Positions 4,446 through 40,872 of a DNA stretch of 64,000 bases are shown here, piece by piece. Below the pieces are notes generated by a model. That model did not search any database and was not told the DNA's origin. It was given only the letters and a program-made list of their open reading frames with translations. The position numbers were made by a program, and so were the translations under genes. The stretch is taken from contig MSJI02000910.1 of NCBI GenBank assembly GCA_001931905.2, positions 1 through 64,000 on the forward strand, given 5' to 3'. How positions within the stretch are numbered: position 1 is the first letter of the stretch; each line of letters opens with the position of its first letter. Source of the DNA: Cladosporium sp. IMV 00045. Lineage: Eukaryota > Ascomycota > Dothideomycetes > Cladosporiales > Cladosporiaceae.

Positions 4446-5288
4446 GCTCTTACCGCGCGGTTGAGTAGCAGTAACCAGTGCAGCAGCACACGCGGGACAA
4501 TATGCGGCAAGGATGCGACGTAGCGCGATCCAATGTGACAGGGTTCCAATGCGCCTGCCGAAATTAAGGATGCAGCATTCACTTCGATCGCGTGCTCGTC
4601 ACGTGGAAATCGTCAAACGTAAGTGAGGTGTATTCGGGTAAGAGGAAGGAGATGAACGTGGCTTCGTAGCAGCATATGAGTAGTGAATTGGGCCTCTGAC
4701 TACGCCTGAAAGTCAGATGGGGCTCTGTACAGCTGCAGCGATCGTCACCAAGAGTCCCACATCTGCAAGCCTCCAGGGTCGCTGGCGCTGCCTTGGGCGC
4801 TGACGTCGCCGGCCCCCCTGGGGAGAAGATTGGGACATCTTGGGATTGGATTCAGCCACCCGTTACGCTATGTTCGCCCGGCTCCACAGGGGACTCGACT
4901 CAATTTAACTACGACCAGGTCCAGGTCTGGATTTTTGGTCCTAGGAGCGAATCACTGGCACAACTGGGTGACGGTAGTTGAATTACACAGCATAAAGCCA
5001 CTGAAATGCCTGCCTTGGCGACCTGCAGCTCATCTGGGCGATATCTCGGCAATATCAACTGGCTCGAGTCATGGACTGAGTGCTGCCTACAAATGTACAA
5101 ATGGAGATGTCGACAGATACGAGTATTGTAATTCTTTCAGAGACGGCGATATGAATTGACTGAGTCCCGCGGAGCTCTTATTGCCTCCCTTCGCAATGAT
5201 ATCTTGACAATCATGGGCCAAATAACAAAGACTTCCTGCCCATTGATACAATCTACACCTCCAGCCGATTGAGATACGAAAAATCACC
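4446..5288. other. Intergenic, divergent promoter region
   Basis: About 840 nt between the septin start (minus) and the start of the broken gene at 5289 (plus). It must contain the septin promoter. I see no coding frame, repeat or RNA gene. Confidence 0.55.
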
Positions 5289-6095
5289 ATGTCAGGCCCA
5301 CCAGAACAGCTTGAAGTAGCCCTCTCAGAATTCAGACTCCGCATGTCAGCCAGCAACCTGGCATGGTGGACAGGCAAAATCCAAAGCCTCGAGCAAGAAA
5401 GCTAGCTGAGCGACAAACAACGCCTGGACTACCTCGCGCAATATCTCGGCCTAGATCGATGATCCGAGACGGGTCACGCAGTCGTATCGCCTTCCCGGAT
5501 TCTACTGCCACCCGAACACCCAGAACATGTCGGACTGGGAGATCCGCCGTGTTCATTCGACGGCACCGGGCCTCCCATGCCGCTTGAGATGCGGCAAAGA
5601 TTTCTTGTCGACCTCTCGCAAGAAGTCAACGAGGCGGCTGGTCAAGAGATTCCCTTGCCCGACGAGTTGTCACGATTCCTCGAGCTCACCGATCATGCTG
5701 ATGGAGGAATCCTGAGAGACTTCATGCCCGTCGGCTTGCACGGATTGTTCCTACTTGGGATTTGCCCTCGCGAGTGGATGAGTGATCGCCTCCCGTGCAG
5801 AGATGCTGACTGGGAAGCGATGACGGGTTGGCAGTCTGCGCTTGGAGAGGGCTCGACGCAGATTCTCTACTCGAGGAAACCAAATGGAAACGCGGACGAG
5901 GCTCGGTGGAAGCGGCGCGTGTACAACATAGGTAGCAAGGACCAGGACGAGCATTGGTTCGAGAACATAGCGGACTTCCTGGATTTCATGGCAGGATGGT
6001 TCGATCGTCTGCCCGACGGTTGGGAGGATGAGCGCAAGGAGCCCATGGAGTATGATAGTGAGCCAGAAGTCAACTCTGAAATGTGTTCTGAATAA
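5289..6095 (+). pseudogene. Broken gene, weakly SMI1/KNR4 (SUKH)-like, two in-frame stops
   Basis: A single reading frame runs 269 codons from ATG 5289 to TAA 6093-6095, interrupted by TAG at 5403-5405 and TGA at 5460-5462. Protein-like sequence is kept on both sides of each stop: 38 residues before the TAG, then LSDKQRLDYLAQYLGLDR, then the rest. This argues for one former gene rather than chance. The intact distal part, from ATG 5577, is 172 codons. Its core LPDELSRFLELTDHADGG resembles the start of SMI1/KNR4-type domains, and the tail is acidic with Trp and Asp. That family link is weak. I found no convincing GT-AG intron that removes both stops while keeping this sequence. Alternatives are a shorter functional gene starting at 5577, or stop readthrough; neither stop context (TAG-CTG, TGA-TCC) is a known strong readthrough signal. 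Confidence 0.5.
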
Positions 6096-33514: not shown

Positions 33515-34317
33515 GTAAGCGAGTGTAGTCTTTGAGTATTAAAGTGGGTGTTGTTGGTATATCAGTGCCCAAGGGTCTGTTGCTTTGATTGCTTTAGCTT
33601 TGGAGCCTGCCAACATCCGAGGTGGGCTGATTGACTGGCTGGCCCTGGTGTTTCACTTCCCCAGATTGCGCTTGCATGGGCAAGGGCGAGGCCAGCGAGT
33701 TGGACCTCGCGCCTACCTACTCTACATCCGTGCTGCTGCGCCTTGGACTCAACATCCAATAACAACACCCATCACTCTCTCATACCATCACTCTGAACCC
33801 CACCGCCTGTGTACAACAGTCACATCCGGACGACTCTCTTCCTCTGTTTGATACTCACGCACTATATTCGTCTAGAAGAGCCGGGACAAGGCTGGAGAGC
33901 AAGGGAAGACAGGGATTCACTTGCTCTTGAACGGAAAGACGACGGGATACTACACTACACTGCACTGCACTGCGATCAGAGGCCTTGCATTTTTCATTCA
34001 TACCTACAATTGCCGCTCTGTCTGCGAGCTCTGTTTCTATCCTTTGTACACTTCGCTTCTGTACGTATTGACCATGGCACGGGCGCATCATATACTTGAG
34101 GGATCATGGCGGGAATGGCGGCGATTGGGAACTCTCTCCTTTTTCTATTGTACTTATTCTGACAAAGCTTGATTCAGACCTCGCATCGCGCGGAGCAGAG
34201 TGTACATATACTCAGAGACAGAAACAGGACGGCGAGCCGATTAAGCACATTGACGTAGCCAGCCTATACACCTCTACCTCGTTGGCACTAATCTAGCGCG
34301 GCTTGGACTCTCACATC
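33515..34317. other. Divergent intergenic region
   Basis: About 800 nt between the Aim11 start (minus) and the CPSF6-like start (plus). Small open frames show no domain. It contains both promoters. Confidence 0.5.
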
Positions 34318-35565
34318 ATGTCTGGCGAAGACGATAACTTCGATATCGATATTTATGGTGACGAAGAGGAAGCACAGCCGCAGCAGCAGCAGCAGCAGCA
34401 ACAGGAGCAAACGCAAGAAGGCGACGACTTTGATTACAACTACGAAGAGACGCAGGAGCAGCAGAACAGCACAGACAACAATGGCCAGAAGCACGCCTCT
34501 AACGGCGGCAACGACGCAACGAACAACCATGAGGCTTTACAGCCTCCCGCAGCAAAACAATCCGCTGTTCCACAACAGAACCTCAAACGCAAAGCGCCAG
34601 ATGACGAGTCCGAAGAACAACAAGCACAGCGCCCATCCACCAGCCAGACACCCGTCGCCACCGACGGCCGCCCACTAGACCCAGGCGCCCTCCCAGCCCT
34701 GAAACTCTCCGAACTCCACTGGTGGACAACAGAAGAAGACCTACGCGCCTTCTGCGCCGCGGCCAACACCGAGCCGGAGCTCCGCGAAGTCGCTTTCGGC
34801 GAGCACAAAATCAACGGCAAAAGCCGTGGCGAAGCCTACCTAGAATTCACCTCCCCGGCAGCAGCGACCGCCACCAAACGCGAAATTGAGCGCATGAACG
34901 CCGAGAACGCAGCGAAAGAGCCCGGCACAGGTCCCAAGGACAAATTCCAAGCCTGGTACACGCAAGTGGGCAACCCCTACCGCGGCAAAGACGGCGCGGT
35001 GGGCGAGAAGAAATTCGGCGGGCAGGCGGGCAAATTCAACAACCAGGGCGGCGCGTATAACAACAACTACCAGGGCCGCGGCAACTTCGGCGGCGGGCGC
35101 GGAAACTACAATCGCGGTGGAGGCTTCAACAACAATAATAACAACAACATGATGGGCCGCGGCGGCGGCAACCAGAACCAGTGGGGCATGAACGGCGCCG
35201 CCGCAGCGGGCTTCACCAACCCCATGATGGCAGGCTATGGCAACATGTACGGCAACATGGGCTACGGCGGCAACAACATGATGGGAGGCGGTCGCGGAGG
35301 CATGATGAACGGCATGATGGGCGGTGGCGGCCGCGGTGGTTTCAACGGCATGAATATGGGTATGGGCGGGATGGGAGGTATGGGGATGGGGAACATGATG
35401 GGCGGGTTGGGGAATATGGGCGGTATGGGCATGAATGCGGGTGGAGGTGGAGGCGGAGGTAGAGGTGGAGGTATGATGGGTCGAGGTGGTGGTGGCTGGG
35501 GTGGTGGAGGGATGGGGATGGGTGGGATGGGTGGTCAGGGGAATAAGAAGCCTAGAATGGAGTAG
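34318..35565 (+). CDS. CPSF6-like RRM protein with Gly/Met/Asn-rich tail
   Basis: A single exon of 415 aa from ATG 34318. An in-frame ATG five codons upstream is disfavoured because MSGEDDNFDIDIYGDEEE is the conserved acidic beginning of fungal members. Poly-Gln lies at 22-29 and a Lys/Arg patch (NLKRKAPDD) near 88-95. The RRM spans about 128-200: LKLSELHWWTTEEDLRAF as the first strand and helix, then NGKSRGEAYLEFTS as the RNP1-type region. The rest (about 235-410) is low-complexity Gly/Asn/Met with RGG and GRGG elements. This layout matches fungal CPSF6/7-related proteins and suggests a role in mRNA 3' processing or another RNA-binding role. The Gly-rich tail may support condensate formation (inference). 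Confidence 0.82.
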   Translation: MSGEDDNFDIDIYGDEEEAQPQQQQQQQQEQTQEGDDFDYNYEETQEQQNSTDNNGQKHASNGGNDATNNHEALQPPAAKQSAVPQQNLKRKAPDDESEEQQAQRPSTSQTPVATDGRPLDPGALPALKLSELHWWTTEEDLRAFCAAANTEPELREVAFGEHKINGKSRGEAYLEFTSPAAATATKREIERMNAENAAKEPGTGPKDKFQAWYTQVGNPYRGKDGAVGEKKFGGQAGKFNNQGGAYNNNYQGRGNFGGGRGNYNRGGGFNNNNNNNMMGRGGGNQNQWGMNGAAAAGFTNPMMAGYGNMYGNMGYGGNNMMGGGRGGMMNGMMGGGGRGGFNGMNMGMGGMGGMGMGNMMGGLGNMGGMGMNAGGGGGGGRGGGMMGRGGGGWGGGGMGMGGMGGQGNKKPRME

Positions 35566-36100: not shown

Positions 36101-39100
36101 CTATAGATCTTCGTCCTTGTCGATGAAGGTGGCACCTCTTTCGAGCAGAAGTCGCTTAATCTCCTCGTTGTCGCTATGATTACGCCGTTCCGGTTTCCGC
36201 ACTCGTCCAACAGAGGCACCACGCTCCAAAAGCAACTTCACAACCGGCAGGAAAGAACGTTCTGACGCCCTCGAGAGTGCAGTGTCTCCACGATTGCAAT
36301 TGGCATCGATGTCGGCTCCGTGGTTTAGTAGCATCCTCAGGATATGTTCAGACCTTGCTCCAGCTGCGTAGTGAAGCGCAGTCAGCCCGTCACTGTCTCT
36401 GACGTTGATGTCAGCCTGGTTGTTGATCAGTAACTGTGCAGTGTCGCCATGATTATTGTAAGATGCCAGCATGAGTGCCGTACTCAGCGTGTTATCGCGG
36501 GCATTGACATCGGATCCTTTGTCAAGTAGCATCTTTACAATCCCCTCGTTTCCCCAAATGGCTGCATATTGAAGGGCAGTGCGCACTGCTCTATCTTTGA
36601 GACTCACGTCTGCTCCGCTCTCCAGCAACATGTCAACAATGTCGTTGTAACCCAGACGTGATGCAAGTATGAGAGCAGTTTCTGCCCTATCGGCGAGGGC
36701 ATTGACATCGGCTCCTCTGTCAAGCAGCATTTGCACGATTGATGAATGCTTATTTTGAGCTGCAAGATGAAGTGCATTTTCGCCATCGGAGGCCCTGAGG
36801 TCGAGGCTCGCTCCGCTTTCCAGCAGGATCCGCACAACTTTCATCTTGCCTTCACGTGATGCCCTCATAAGTGCAGTGGATGACGCTAAGCCTCGAGAGT
36901 CGACGTCGACGCCAGCAGCCAGCAGTAATTGTACTGTCTTGTCGCGACCTTGCAAAGCCGCCTCCATTAATGCCGCGCTTCCATCTACGAGGTTCAGTGC
37001 AAGTCGAACGATCGCTTCGGGTGCTAGATTGTCCCAAGCACCTTCGGGAAGGGCATCGCCTCTTTCATGCAGTTGATCTGCTACAGTATGATGTGTCATC
37101 AGAGTTCGAAGGATGTCGATGTTCGCTCGCTGGATAGCCAATCGGAGTTCCATGTGTGAAGAGCTTCTTAATGCAGCACCGGAATCTATTAGGCTCCGCA
37201 CCATCTCAAGATGATCCTTTTTGACTGCTAGGGACAGGCAGGTGCAAGAATCTTTAGCCGGGGAATCAGGACTTGCGCCATGAGCGAGGAGTAAATTGAA
37301 CATTCGCTGGTCGTCGAGATCTATAGCAGCACCGAGCAATGATTTGTGCTGCTCGTGCCGCCATCCTTGGTCGCGCGAGAAGACGGATTCCTCTTGAAGG
37401 ACTTTTCCCACCAAATTGTGCGCACCGAGCAAGACGAAGATGTAAATCGCCGACGCGTAAACGCTCAATCGGCGGATGTGATATCTGACGGTCTTATTGT
37501 AGAGCCTGTGCCAAAGGTAGCAGGGAAAGTCGACGGTGAAATCGGTTTGCGACAGGCCGTCACGATGAGCCGAATCCGCATGAAACACGAGGCCAGCCAA
37601 GGCATAGTCAAGAAAGGGCCAACGAGTCGTTGTGCGAGTTTGCAGACTTTCGATACCTCGCGCGTTGCGACTTAGATGATCCATCAGGCCGTCCTGTGGT
37701 GAGACAAGGCAGACGGATTCGCACTTTGTGATGTAGTGATGGCAGCATTGCTTGAGTCGGTCATGGCAGAAGCCGCTCAGATTATCGTGCAGACCAGGCT
37801 CCAGAGTCCTCAGTCCGGTTTCGAGTAGATAGTCTCTCACAGACTCATGGATGAATTGAGTGGTAGGCTGCTTCCCTCTAGTCAGCTCCGCCAGGCCTCT
37901 TGAGGAGTCTAGAATGAACATCTCCATATCGTTGGTGCTCACTTCACCGGGGTCCCAAGCCTCAAGTGGGTCATCATCCATGCTACTTGTGACAGCAAAG
38001 TACAGCTCTTCACGACTCAAGGGGCGTTTGGCAAACAAAAGCCATTGAAACGTCAGAAGAACCGTCTGTCTGTCACGGTCGTCCAAAGAGTCTCTCTGCA
38101 GTATCCTCTCGAACAGCTCGTGCAGATCCGCTGGGAGCTCCTTTAAGCGACTCTTGAGCTGGGAGACCTTGCCTTGCGATTTGGCCTTGTTGAGGATTCG
38201 GATCACGAGGACTACCCATAGAAAGATCCCAGAAGCCTTGCGTTGTATTTCGTCTCTGATACCTTGAGCCGCTCTTGAATTGCCAATCTGCAGTTTGTTT
38301 CTGGTGTAATCTGCAATGTCCAGCTCGTGACCCTCTTGTCCGTCAAGGATCAGCTCCAGGCAGCTTCTGATCAGGATGTGTGGATAGTGGCGACTTGACA
38401 GAAGCACACGAAGGTGGACCTGCTTCTCCACCGCCAATTCGCTGAGCGTCTCAAAAAATTCAATCATGTCTTGTGCTTCGTCGTCTTCGCATTCGTCAAG
38501 CGCATCAACGTAACATGTAAGCCTTGTTGAGCCCATGGCCAGCACAGCTTCCCGGAACATATTTTTGAGTTGTTCGACGTGCCAGACGCCCTGATGGACT
38601 CGCTGGCCAAGGTTCAGCTCCATAGCTGAGAGGCGAGGCACTTTCGTCAAGAGTTGATGTAGTAGTGAGCGATACATCCCTTCTGCACATCTTTGAAGTT
38701 GTGTGCCTCTAGCGTTGAAGAAGAACGAAACGATAGCATCTTCTTTGAACGTTCGCACGCCATGGTCATAAGCGACTTTCATCACTGTCGACTTTCCCGC
38801 GCCTGGTTTTCCTTTGATCCAGAGGAAACCTTGGTGACTGTGCAAGTCGATCTCATCCTGCCACATTTTGTACTGCTCCGTCTTGAATAACCACCGGCAT
38901 GTTTTGGAATATGCCGCACTGATTGTACTGTAACGCTCATCCATCTCGTCAAATGACAGTGCGTCTACGAGTCCTGTGGCCGTGTCTGGGGTCTGTTCAT
39001 TAGCCTCTGGTTGAGGCACTGTGGTGGGTGTAGAGTGTTGCGGGTACACATTGTATGTGTTATTGGTGGTGTTGGTCGCATGACTGGTATTTGTGTAGTT

Positions 39101-39319
39101 ACCGAACACACTTCGGGAGTTGCCTTGTGCTGTAGCATTATCGTAACGATTTCCTAAGCGCGGCGCATCGATGTCGAGTCTTTGCCTCTTCGCTGGAGGA
39201 CCATTCACGTCGTCATCATCGGTCAACTCTCGACTCCCACCAGATGCCGCGACTTGATTGGATCCTTCTGCGCTCATGCTGCCGTGTGTGCTGGGTTTGA
39301 TGACTTGGGTTGGTGTCAA
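36101..39319 (-). CDS. NACHT-ankyrin NOD-like receptor with N-terminal amyloid-like motif
   Basis: An intact, intronless frame of 1072 aa (alternative start M15 at 39277). Residues 1-55 are disordered. At 59-77 lies the motif YDNATAQGNSRSVFGNYTN, matching motifs in the neighbouring HeLo gene and the HET-s-related amyloid pattern. It sits in an Asn/Thr-rich, prion-like stretch (to about 92). The region around 118-165 is the usual fungal pre-NACHT segment. Walker A is GKPGAGKST (169-177), and the Walker B region is CYVDALDECEDDE. A helical arm with LPADLHELFERIL follows. From about 660 to 1066 there are about 11 ankyrin repeats (for example TALMRASREGKMKVVRILLE), most regular at 780-1035. Such NLRs are STAND ATPases that oligomerise on ligand binding and nucleate a partner effector. 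It is divergent from the HeLo gene, 555 nt apart. The ligand is unknown. Confidence 0.92.
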   Translation of the reverse strand: MTPTQVIKPSTHGSMSAEGSNQVAASGGSRELTDDDDVNGPPAKRQRLDIDAPRLGNRYDNATAQGNSRSVFGNYTNTSHATNTTNNTYNVYPQHSTPTTVPQPEANEQTPDTATGLVDALSFDEMDERYSTISAAYSKTCRWLFKTEQYKMWQDEIDLHSHQGFLWIKGKPGAGKSTVMKVAYDHGVRTFKEDAIVSFFFNARGTQLQRCAEGMYRSLLHQLLTKVPRLSAMELNLGQRVHQGVWHVEQLKNMFREAVLAMGSTRLTCYVDALDECEDDEAQDMIEFFETLSELAVEKQVHLRVLLSSRHYPHILIRSCLELILDGQEGHELDIADYTRNKLQIGNSRAAQGIRDEIQRKASGIFLWVVLVIRILNKAKSQGKVSQLKSRLKELPADLHELFERILQRDSLDDRDRQTVLLTFQWLLFAKRPLSREELYFAVTSSMDDDPLEAWDPGEVSTNDMEMFILDSSRGLAELTRGKQPTTQFIHESVRDYLLETGLRTLEPGLHDNLSGFCHDRLKQCCHHYITKCESVCLVSPQDGLMDHLSRNARGIESLQTRTTTRWPFLDYALAGLVFHADSAHRDGLSQTDFTVDFPCYLWHRLYNKTVRYHIRRLSVYASAIYIFVLLGAHNLVGKVLQEESVFSRDQGWRHEQHKSLLGAAIDLDDQRMFNLLLAHGASPDSPAKDSCTCLSLAVKKDHLEMVRSLIDSGAALRSSSHMELRLAIQRANIDILRTLMTHHTVADQLHERGDALPEGAWDNLAPEAIVRLALNLVDGSAALMEAALQGRDKTVQLLLAAGVDVDSRGLASSTALMRASREGKMKVVRILLESGASLDLRASDGENALHLAAQNKHSSIVQMLLDRGADVNALADRAETALILASRLGYNDIVDMLLESGADVSLKDRAVRTALQYAAIWGNEGIVKMLLDKGSDVNARDNTLSTALMLASYNNHGDTAQLLINNQADINVRDSDGLTALHYAAGARSEHILRMLLNHGADIDANCNRGDTALSRASERSFLPVVKLLLERGASVGRVRKPERRNHSDNEEIKRLLLERGATFIDKDEDL

Positions 39320-39874
39320 GTGTCAGATGTAAGACAGCAAAGACACCCCAGCCTCGCCGTGCGATGTGGAAGCCAGGTGCTCGTGGATACCATGCAAAGC
39401 TGTCTCAATCAGGTGTTGTCAGCCAAATAAAAGTACTCTCGAGATGTCGTATTTTACAGTAAAGACCTCCCTCAGCTTCGCCGTGCCTTCTTGAAGCAAG
39501 ACACTCATGAATATCAGGCTGAGGTATCCCAGTCAGGTGATGTCAGCCAGATGGAAGTACATCGCAAGTGCTTGCATGAGGCCGCCGCCCCAAGGCGCAG
39601 CCTAGCCGCTCGCTTATATCGTCGTGCATGAAGCTGGACCCGCGCCATGCAGAACCTCCAACCAATCGATCAGACGAGTGGCTGTCTAAGCCTTGCTGTA
39701 CACGGCGGCAGACAAGCTGAGCCTTGTATGTGCAGAGAAGTGAGAGATGGTATATAGTGGGCGCAGCGCCTCTTCAGTCGCCAGCATTATATATGAACTG
39801 CAAGCATTGTGATCGGTGGAATGTATTAGCACGATTTATTAGTTCAAGTTGCAAGCATCTCACAAGAAAACATA
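39320..39874. promoter_or_regulatory. Bidirectional promoter of the receptor/effector pair
   Basis: A 555-nt spacer between the NLR start (minus) and the HeLo gene start (plus). It holds a diverged tandem duplication at 39334-39570, listed separately. A TATA-like TATATA lies at about 39787-39792, roughly 85 nt upstream of the HeLo start. Confidence 0.5.
39334..39570. repeat. Diverged ~115-nt tandem duplication in shared promoter
   Basis: Copy 1 (about 39334-39446) and copy 2 (about 39456-39570) align along their length, offset by about 122 nt. Shared blocks include ACAG-AAAGAC, CTTCGCCGTG/CCTCGCCGTG, TCAGGTG-TGTCAGCCA and GAAGTACAT/AAAGTACTC. The copies differ at many sites, so the duplication is old. 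Confidence 0.75.
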
Positions 39875-40872
39875 ATGGCCGAGCTAGCCATCGGTGCCGT
39901 CGGTCTTATTGCGCTCGAAAGCACGGTAAGTTGAAGCTATCTGTATCGTCCAGACCTAACGCAGCGCATGGCTGATAATCCTCCAGGTGGACAGCTTCTT
40001 CACAAAGGCTTCGACATGGAGGCACTACGGCAAAGACTTCGAGCAACACGCCCTTTCGCTCGACTTGGCAAGCATTGCCTACAAGAGATGGAGGAAAAGT
40101 GTCAGGCTTATGGATGGCACCGCCGATGCACATGTCGCGGAAATGACAGTCGCTTCTGAGGAAGAAGCCTCTACTGTCGTGAGGCTCCTGGGAACCATCC
40201 AACTGGCCTTTCGGAATGCCGAGAAGACCATGGAGCGGTACGCTGGTGATGAATCGGCGGTGGTGCCAAACGCAACATCAAGTGATCTTGCTGCCAGAGT
40301 AGATGCTGTGAACAAAGCTCGCCAGTCCAACGCGAACGCCTTCCAAAAAGCGCGTTGGGTCTTCCGCGATGCAAAGTCTTTCAAGGAGCTTGCAGAGTAA
40401 GACATCATTCGTCGAACGTACCCAGGAAAGCCGCGAGCTAACGTATTCCAGAACTGTATCGCGCAATGTTGAAGGCTTGACCAAAGTCTTTCCACCAGCA
40501 ATCCAAAAGATCCAAGAGCAGCTGGCCGCAGTGGACCTTCAGGACATAGTCCCACCCGGCTCTGCCGCTACAAACTCAGGAGTGCTCACAGCGGAGAAGC
40601 GCGATCTGGCTCAAGTCCGCGACGTTGTCGCCAGCATTGACCCAATACTGCAGCAAGTGGCGGATGAGCAGATTCCGCAGGTCGGCCGTAGACACCTGTA
40701 CGATCGAAACGTCGCCGAACAAAACGCTAGGGCCTACTACGGCGATGAGATTTATGGGCAAGATGACCCGAGCAGAGTTGGCAGTGTGTACACGAATAGT
40801 GTGGTCCGTGGACATGCTCGTGCCCAGTATGGAGACAGAGTTAATCCGCAGAGTAGTTTTTGGGATGATTAA
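39875..40872 (+). CDS. HET-S-like HeLo-domain protein with two C-terminal amyloid-like repeats
   Basis: Three exons: 39875-39925, 39987-40396 and 40452-40872. The introns are 61 and 55 nt. The product is 293 aa; HET-s is 289 aa. It has a hydrophobic N-terminus (MAELAIGAVGLIALEST) followed by a helical HeLo domain to about 230, with YGKDFEQHALSLDLASIAYK and RWRKSVRL in the position of the conserved HET-S block. The C-terminal region carries two motif copies, at 237-255 (YDRNVAEQNARAYYGDEIY) and 267-285 (YTNSVVRGHARAQYGDRVN). The chain ends in FWDD, like the terminal Phe-Trp-Asp of HET-s. HeLo domains act as membrane-disrupting cell-death effectors when the C-terminal region folds into a beta-solenoid amyloid. 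The motif match with the divergent NLR argues that it is that receptor's effector. Function is inferred, not shown. Confidence 0.9.

Follow-up and report, generated by a model that had tools for sequence, protein, structure and literature searches.

A divergent NLR and HeLo gene pair in Cladosporium sp. IMV 00045 carries an HRAM-like motif that recurs across the NLR repertoire

Organisation of the locus

We analysed a 64,000-nucleotide stretch of the genome of Cladosporium sp. IMV 00045 (the window; GenBank assembly GCA_001931905.2, contig MSJI02000910.1, here C906, positions 1 to 64,000 of the forward strand). Two divergent genes in the window encode a NOD-like receptor (NLR) with a NACHT domain and ankyrin repeats and a protein with a HeLo domain, here called the effector. 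There is one copy of a motif resembling the HET-s-related amyloid motif (HRAM) near the N-terminus of the receptor (r0) and there are two copies at the C-terminus of the effector (r1 and r2). This is the layout of NWD2/HET-S, which a first-pass annotation of the window had proposed and which our analysis bears out. The motif is also present at many other NLR loci of the genome, which comprises 49,867,185 bases in 954 contigs.

The receptor gene runs from 36101 to 39277 on the minus strand, stop codon included, as a single open exon of 1058 aa defined by its open reading frame (ORF) and ATG; the ATG at 39277 is the likely start, rather than the TTG at 39319. r0 lies at 39086..39157 (minus strand; residues 41-64) and scores 35.1 bits with a profile made from other NLRs. 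The NACHT-type nucleotide-binding domain is at 38390..38902 (minus strand; residues 126-296; NPHP3_N, 111.8 bits, Pfam) and has the P-loop GKPGAGKS at residue 156. Part of the ankyrin repeats is placed at 36206..36787 (minus strand; residues 831-1024) by the best stretches of Pfam Ank and Ank_2. A homologue search was made with residues 1-330 and 120 of the 2601 matches were listed; because the query included r0, this sample leans to motif carriers. Among the matches listed, the closest homologue is P0005 (92%); of those with a species name, a protein of Cladosporium fusiforme is nearest (58% identity).

The effector gene starts at 39875 on the plus strand and has two GT-AG introns (39926-39986 and 40397-40451), giving a product of 293 aa. 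The splice sites were inferred from the sequence and from a matching copy of the gene in what we take to be a second subgenome. Exon 1 (39875..39925, plus strand) is defined by the ATG and a GT-AG intron and has an equal structure in that copy. Exon 2 (39987..40396, plus strand) encodes most of the HeLo domain and alone scores 54 bits with PF14479. Exon 3 (40452..40872, plus strand) encodes the end of the HeLo domain, a linker, r1 (40687..40758, plus strand; residues 233-256; 32.9 bits), a loop, r2 (40777..40848, plus strand; residues 263-286; 30.8 bits), an aromatic tail and the stop. In the spliced product the HeLo domain spans residues 4-185 with 83.7 bits, compared with a curated cut-off of 23.2, and the nearest solved chains are the HeLo domains of HET-S/s (2wvo, E 2.4e-13).

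Both genes are open, as the first-pass annotation had stated. The 167-aa ORF that it had given for the effector (40369-40872) does hold both motif copies but is not the whole effector; it is made up of the last exon preceded by intronic sequence and by part of the upstream exon read in another frame. The HeLo relatives are three metagenome proteins (P0002-P0004; 40-42% identity), which stop before the tail, and the P0004 scan of viral contigs gave no relative. When relatives of the tail were sought among the searched sequences, only the window's own ORF matched.

The motif in the receptor and the effector

A profile of 24 positions was made, with the pair excluded, from the N-termini of 21 further NLRs in the genome, and used to scan the window in six frames. 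Among the 65,684 stop-free 24-mers the three top scores are r0, r1 and r2; the runners-up score 10.5 (overlapping r0) and 9.7 bits. Neither the r1 nor the r2 score was reached in 20,000 shuffles of the last 100 residues of the effector (0/20,000 for each), and the r0 score was not reached in 20,000 shuffles of the first 120 residues of the receptor. A chance origin of the three stretches is therefore excluded. All three had been claimed beforehand from the letters alone; they are present, in frame and without gaps, and only they stand out. The 21 training N-termini had been found with the N-terminus of the receptor and cut by a motif-shaped pattern, so the profile is not wholly independent. 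Since this pattern admits only G at position 19 and only R, K, Q or V at position 15, it accounts in part for the conservation of both positions among the receptor-side copies.

The anatomy of the pair is that of published HRAM proteins. The HeLo protein is shorter than 310 aa (293) and has two C-terminal repeats, a loop of 9 residues and an aromatic tail; the loop is 6-18 residues long in 154 of 155 published two-repeat proteins (PMC4518210). The adjacent NLR has one N-terminal copy of the motif (r0, residues 41-64) and its gene is 597 bp away. G19 is present in r0, r1 and r2, and equally in their three counterparts from the second subgenome. At position 15, where HRAMs prefer R or K, all three motifs of the window have R; in the second subgenome, r0 has R, r1 has K and r2 has Q. 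Of the positions that are hydrophobic in HRAMs (5, 8, 10, 16 and 18), 5, 10 and 18 are so here and 16 mostly (S in r0), whereas 8 departs from the rule in r1 and r2. Complementary charges at position 11 of the two repeats are a published HRAM feature (PMC4518210), and here they are opposite between r1 and r2 in both subgenome copies (E/R and D/R). In the window, H at position 3 occurs only in r1; both repeats of the second-subgenome effector have it, as do 15 of the 39 receptor-side copies.

No family matches the motif region in a Pfam scan of 14 sequences (2+6+6), PF11558 included, and PF11558, the HET-s prion domain, gives no match at E<=10. This model matches only 38 of the 155 published two-repeat proteins (PMC4518210). 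The motif had been put forward as a possibly undescribed, Tyr-rich variant. The absence of a Pfam match and a departure at position 8 agree with this, but the motif otherwise follows the published HRAM pattern and, like HRAM3, has H at position 3 in many copies. Open-access literature searches did not find this pair described.

The motif in the NLR repertoire

We scored the motif in the N-terminal regions of 106 non-redundant NLR loci from both subgenomes (30 from the N-terminus search and 80 fetched, minus 4 counted twice). At 38 of the 106 loci it is present with 20 bits or more, a level that holds after removal of similar rows from the training set, and the next scores are 18.1, 16.8 and 13.6. 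In the antisense control none of the 106 reaches 12 bits (maximum 6.8). The 106 loci omit some of the 133 NPHP3_N places, namely those that start well inside the domain and others such as those on C596, C948, C862, C685 and C852. The figure of 38 counts loci and not working receptors, as there is no annotated gene set, two subgenomes are included and some carriers are frame-broken.

Among the 120 listed homologues, 83 have the motif at 20 bits or more, and in 82 of these it is within the first 200 residues. All four listed C. fusiforme proteins (P0006, P0031, P0077 and P0084) carry it, as does the one listed C. allicinum protein (P0092). The one listed C. halotolerans protein (P0047) has a short N-terminus and the motif is absent. 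The first-pass annotation had treated the motif as a mark of this pair and, in view of these counts and of the rank of the neighbouring r0 given below, this does not hold.

The motif is missing where an effector domain is fused to the receptor. No listed homologue with a PNP_UDP or HET domain among its listed Pfam domains has it (0/10, compared with 83/110 of the others; Fisher p 3e-6), and it is absent from all nine NLR loci of the genome with SesA or PigL_N directly upstream on the same strand (0/9, compared with 38/97; p 0.025), one of which, on C708, scores below the family cut-off. These p values ignore kinship among loci and are upper-end estimates of significance. Such a swap would be expected of a motif that takes the place of an effector domain.

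There are also some irregular copies. Immediately upstream of its motif, P0081 has another, weaker stretch that resembles it (29.5 bits), and P0096, P0101 and P0105 have weaker ones still. L036 (C687) and L048 (C2), NLR copies that seem related and both have in-frame stops, differ in motif type (TRAQLGD and SQSHQGD). On C861 (27100-29800, minus strand; L136/L137) there is an N-terminal motif followed by what appears by eye to be ankyrin-like sequence, and a NACHT domain is not recognisable.

Search for further effectors

There are six HeLo places in the genome. The effector in the window and its copy on C597 have two motif copies each. A HeLo gene on C637 also has two (33.0 and 27.1 bits; L019:5548-5619 and 5643-5714), in which position 18 is Q, as has been described for HRAM4; its HeLo domain and both repeats are in different reading frames and the gene looks disrupted. 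No motif copy was found with the two HeLo genes on C420 or with the one on C852. At the C852 locus (L016) a motif-bearing NLR (5218-5289, 20.7 bits) is head to head with the HeLo protein (7220 onward), which by eye has a kinase-like region and, with no C-terminal motif, an MLKL-like architecture.

Two queries of the genome gave no further effector-like place. A tandem consensus query returned nine places (two effector, six NLR and the one on C861), and a concatenated query returned 23 (two effector and 21 NLR), which is below the known number of carriers. At the four PNP_UDP places, considered as HRAM3-type effectors, the best motif score is 7.8 bits and there is no copy. Likewise, there is no motif copy in the approximately 700 bases 3' of 15 SesA/PigL_N matches outside NLRs (nine SesA and six PigL_N; best score 8.5), a scan that excluded six further matches with no NACHT domain immediately downstream in the same orientation (C864, C722, C663 twice, C235 and C181) and that a motif beyond a later intron would escape. 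Intact HeLo-motif effectors were thus found only at one locus per subgenome; motifs that are single-copy, divergent or split by an intron could have escaped.

The second copy of the locus and the selection on it

There is a second copy of the locus on C597, with 90.0% and 89.2% identity to the window in two flanking alignments and 81.2% identity in the pair itself (3,394 aligned bases). Hortaea werneckii is a diploid hybrid with a reference of 49.9 Mbp and subgenomes that are 89% identical (PMC5952469). We infer that the C597 copy represents a second subgenome, because its divergence matches that of this published hybrid. The effector is intact on C597, and head-to-head linkage is kept in both subgenomes. 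A Gly/Asn-rich neighbour of the pair (34303-35565; RNA-binding-like by eye only) has a counterpart next to the pair on C597 (L015:1788-3065), in support of synteny. The C597 receptor (L015:3688-7009) is split over two overlapping frames, as a result either of a real lesion or of an assembly error.

The ratio of nonsynonymous to synonymous rates (dN/dS) was estimated by the Nei-Gojobori method from this one pair of subgenome copies, with no outgroup. It is 0.07 in the HeLo domain (185 codons), 0.33 in the effector linker and 0.72, or near neutral, in the effector tail (residues 233-293; 60 codons; 42.9 nonsynonymous and 15.1 synonymous changes); the single repeats give 1.11 (r1) and 0.35 (r2). 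In the receptor, dN/dS is 0.07 for r0 (3.0 nonsynonymous and 8.0 synonymous changes), 0.53 for residues 1-40, 0.19 for residues 65-125 and 0.09 for NACHT. Contrasts on rounded counts give p 5e-8 for HeLo versus tail, p 0.014 for r0 versus r1 and r2 together, and p 0.07 for r0 versus residues 1-40. Therefore r0 is held as tightly as NACHT while the effector repeats drift. Y5, Y18 and G19 are nevertheless kept in all four effector repeats of the two copies.

Summed BLOSUM62 scores were used to compare r1 and r2 with the motif in 39 receptor-side sequences, which include the C861 protein without a recognisable NACHT. The r0 of the neighbouring receptor ranks 19th of 39 for r1 and 17th of 39 for r2. 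The closest receptor-side copies to r1 are those of L026, L039 and L031, and the closest to r2 are those of L038, L026 and L031; none of these loci is on the contig of the pair. For the repeats of the C597 effector, the r0 from the same locus is 9th and 12th. An exclusive partnership of the two neighbours, read from similarity alone, was rejected as the leading view, as the neighbouring r0 is mid-ranked. In this respect the pair departs from most HRAM pairs. Neighbours usually group, with 82 of 90 r0 motifs grouping with both repeats (PMC4518210), but this is not a strict criterion.

Comparison with known systems

The closest parallel in layout is NWD2/HET-S of Podospora anserina (HRAM1), which likewise has adjacent NLR and HeLo genes, one N-terminal motif and two C-terminal repeats, and with which the pair shares G19, R/K15 and most of the hydrophobic pattern. 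NWD2 has WD repeats, whereas the sensor here is made of ankyrin repeats. There are further differences: PF11558 does not match, position 8 is polar in the effector and the motif is found in many other NLRs. In addition, r0 begins at residue 41, whereas most HRAMs of NLRs begin at positions 5-9 (PMC9815663). FNT1/HELLF of P. anserina (HRAM5) is also an NLR with a helical-bundle executioner that has two pseudo-repeats (PMC7889193); it differs in having a HeLo-like domain and HRAM5, and its published account, as far as its accessible text goes, does not report a shared repertoire.

With HRAM3 and NLR12 the motif shares H3 in many copies, and in both cases NLRs outnumber effectors (PMC4518210, PMC9815663). 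The mean ratio of NLRs to effectors per genome is 5.7:1 for the HRAM3-like motif (PMC9815663). Unlike HRAM3, r2 has S and r0 has N at position 3, and the NLR12 effectors are PNP_UDP proteins with one motif, whereas here there is a HeLo protein with two (PMC9815663). The repertoires of Basidiomycota are similar in that they have dozens of NLRs for each motif and few effectors, although here the fungus is an ascomycete and the effector is still linked to one receptor; the likeness is one of numbers (PMC9815663). In that survey, Basidiomycota have dozens of motif-bearing NLRs and ascomycete strains a few, and it was speculated that many NLRs may act on one effector (PMC9815663). A survey of HET and Het-C proteins in H. 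werneckii does not refer to NACHT or ankyrin in its main text (PMC9535773).

Proposed mechanism and alternatives

By analogy with NWD2/HET-S, we consider it likely that the pair is an NLR-controlled cell-death module that works in the same way. The steps are modelled on NWD2/HET-S, FNT1/HELLF and PNT1/HELLP (PMC7889193, PMC12881547). Binding of a ligand by the ankyrin repeats would cause the NACHT domain to oligomerise, and r0 of the oligomerised receptor would then nucleate and template r1 and r2 of the effector. The refolded tail would free the N-terminal HeLo helix, the membrane would be permeabilised and the cell would die. The motif itself is probably amyloid, to judge by its likeness to HRAM proteins. 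We suggest that r0 is probably a shared signalling plug of several receptors rather than a private key, because about one-third of the NLR loci examined carry the motif and intact HeLo-motif effectors are at one locus per subgenome. This is the least certain step. The broader proposal is that about one-third of the NLR repertoire uses one amyloid dialect and converges on a single intact HeLo locus per subgenome, in a logic like that of sensors and helpers; we put this forward tentatively.

Several results weigh against these proposals. HRAM wants a hydrophobic residue at position 8, and it is polar in r1 (N) and r2 (S), with A in r0; over the 39 receptor-side copies it is mostly N, T, I or S. 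AlphaFold2 predicts no strand for exon 3 alone, at a mean predicted local distance difference test (pLDDT) score of 48.5, which is low confidence and uninformative. The effector tail gives no HET-s match against solved structures, and the motif profile gives no credible match there either (best E 0.23, to a short unrelated stretch). The effector repeats change fast, which would not be predicted for a shared hub, and the middle rank of the neighbouring r0 would not be predicted for a private pair.

The HeLo protein may instead be activated by its neighbour alone, with the other motif-bearing NLRs using effectors that we have not seen, or none. The head-to-head linkage in both subgenomes is consistent with this, and single-copy effector motifs could escape the searches, given that the concatenated query recovered fewer places than there are known carriers. 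However, in both subgenomes other receptors come closer to r1 and r2 than the neighbouring receptor does, and no motif copy was found 3' of the SesA/PigL_N matches or at the PNP_UDP loci, which leaves this explanation somewhat doubtful. The much stronger conservation of r0 than of the effector repeats, together with the small number of effectors, would fit a scaffold in which r0 chiefly assembles receptors with receptors and recruitment of HeLo is secondary, a role that has been suggested for some motifs without effector partners (PMC9815663). This is unlikely in our view, as the effector has two copies at the correct spacing and the motif is missing from the fused-effector NLRs, as if it replaced an effector.

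Two further explanations concern the state of the motif itself. If the subgenome copies have been diverging without function since hybridisation, the fast change of the repeats would be relaxed drift; the near-neutral effector tail, the frame-broken C597 receptor and the frame-broken third HeLo-motif gene all point in this direction. Against this, strong purifying selection acts on the HeLo domain and on r0 of these very genes, the copy in the window is intact, and no repeat among the four has lost G19, Y5 or Y18, so that simple decay seems rather improbable. It is more improbable still that a separate adaptor binds the motif as a short linear motif of a non-amyloid kind. The departure at position 8 would allow this, as would the fact that the amyloid state is a prediction, but the tandem copies, the G19/R15 pattern, the loop length and the tail are all as in HRAM proteins. 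Moreover, the beta-solenoid fold of HELLF persists at identity as low as 17% (PMC7889193).

If the proposal of a shared plug is true, many sensors feed very few executioners through a motif that goes beyond the published HRAM rule for position 8. In Podospora the amyloid signalling lines are parallel and private, with prions that do not cross-seed (PMC7889193). Here, 38 NLR loci and two intact HeLo copies have one motif, and specificity versus sharing is directly testable with a natural panel of r0 sequences. The many-to-one idea has already been proposed (PMC9815663); the data suggest that what is new, within the literature searched, is the occurrence in an ascomycete, with a HeLo effector and with a motif invisible to Pfam. 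As no Pfam model matches the motif here, plug repertoires of this kind may be undercounted. A Fusarium oxysporum assembly with 23 amyloid motifs (17 sigma and 6 HET-s) has been called the most motif-rich chromosome-level fungal assembly (PMC12261475), a number that is not directly comparable with our 38 loci, which were found with other profiles and include two subgenomes and broken copies.

The intergenic region

The divergent intergenic region (39278..39874) is 597 bp long and contains a pair of direct repeats of 91 bp (39346-39436 and 39470-39560), which are 74% identical and have a spacing of 124. It is possible that this repeat pair is a shared regulatory element. In the C597 copy there are shorter pieces of the repeat, with spacings of 124 and 121 bp (L015:7019/7143 and 7083/7204).

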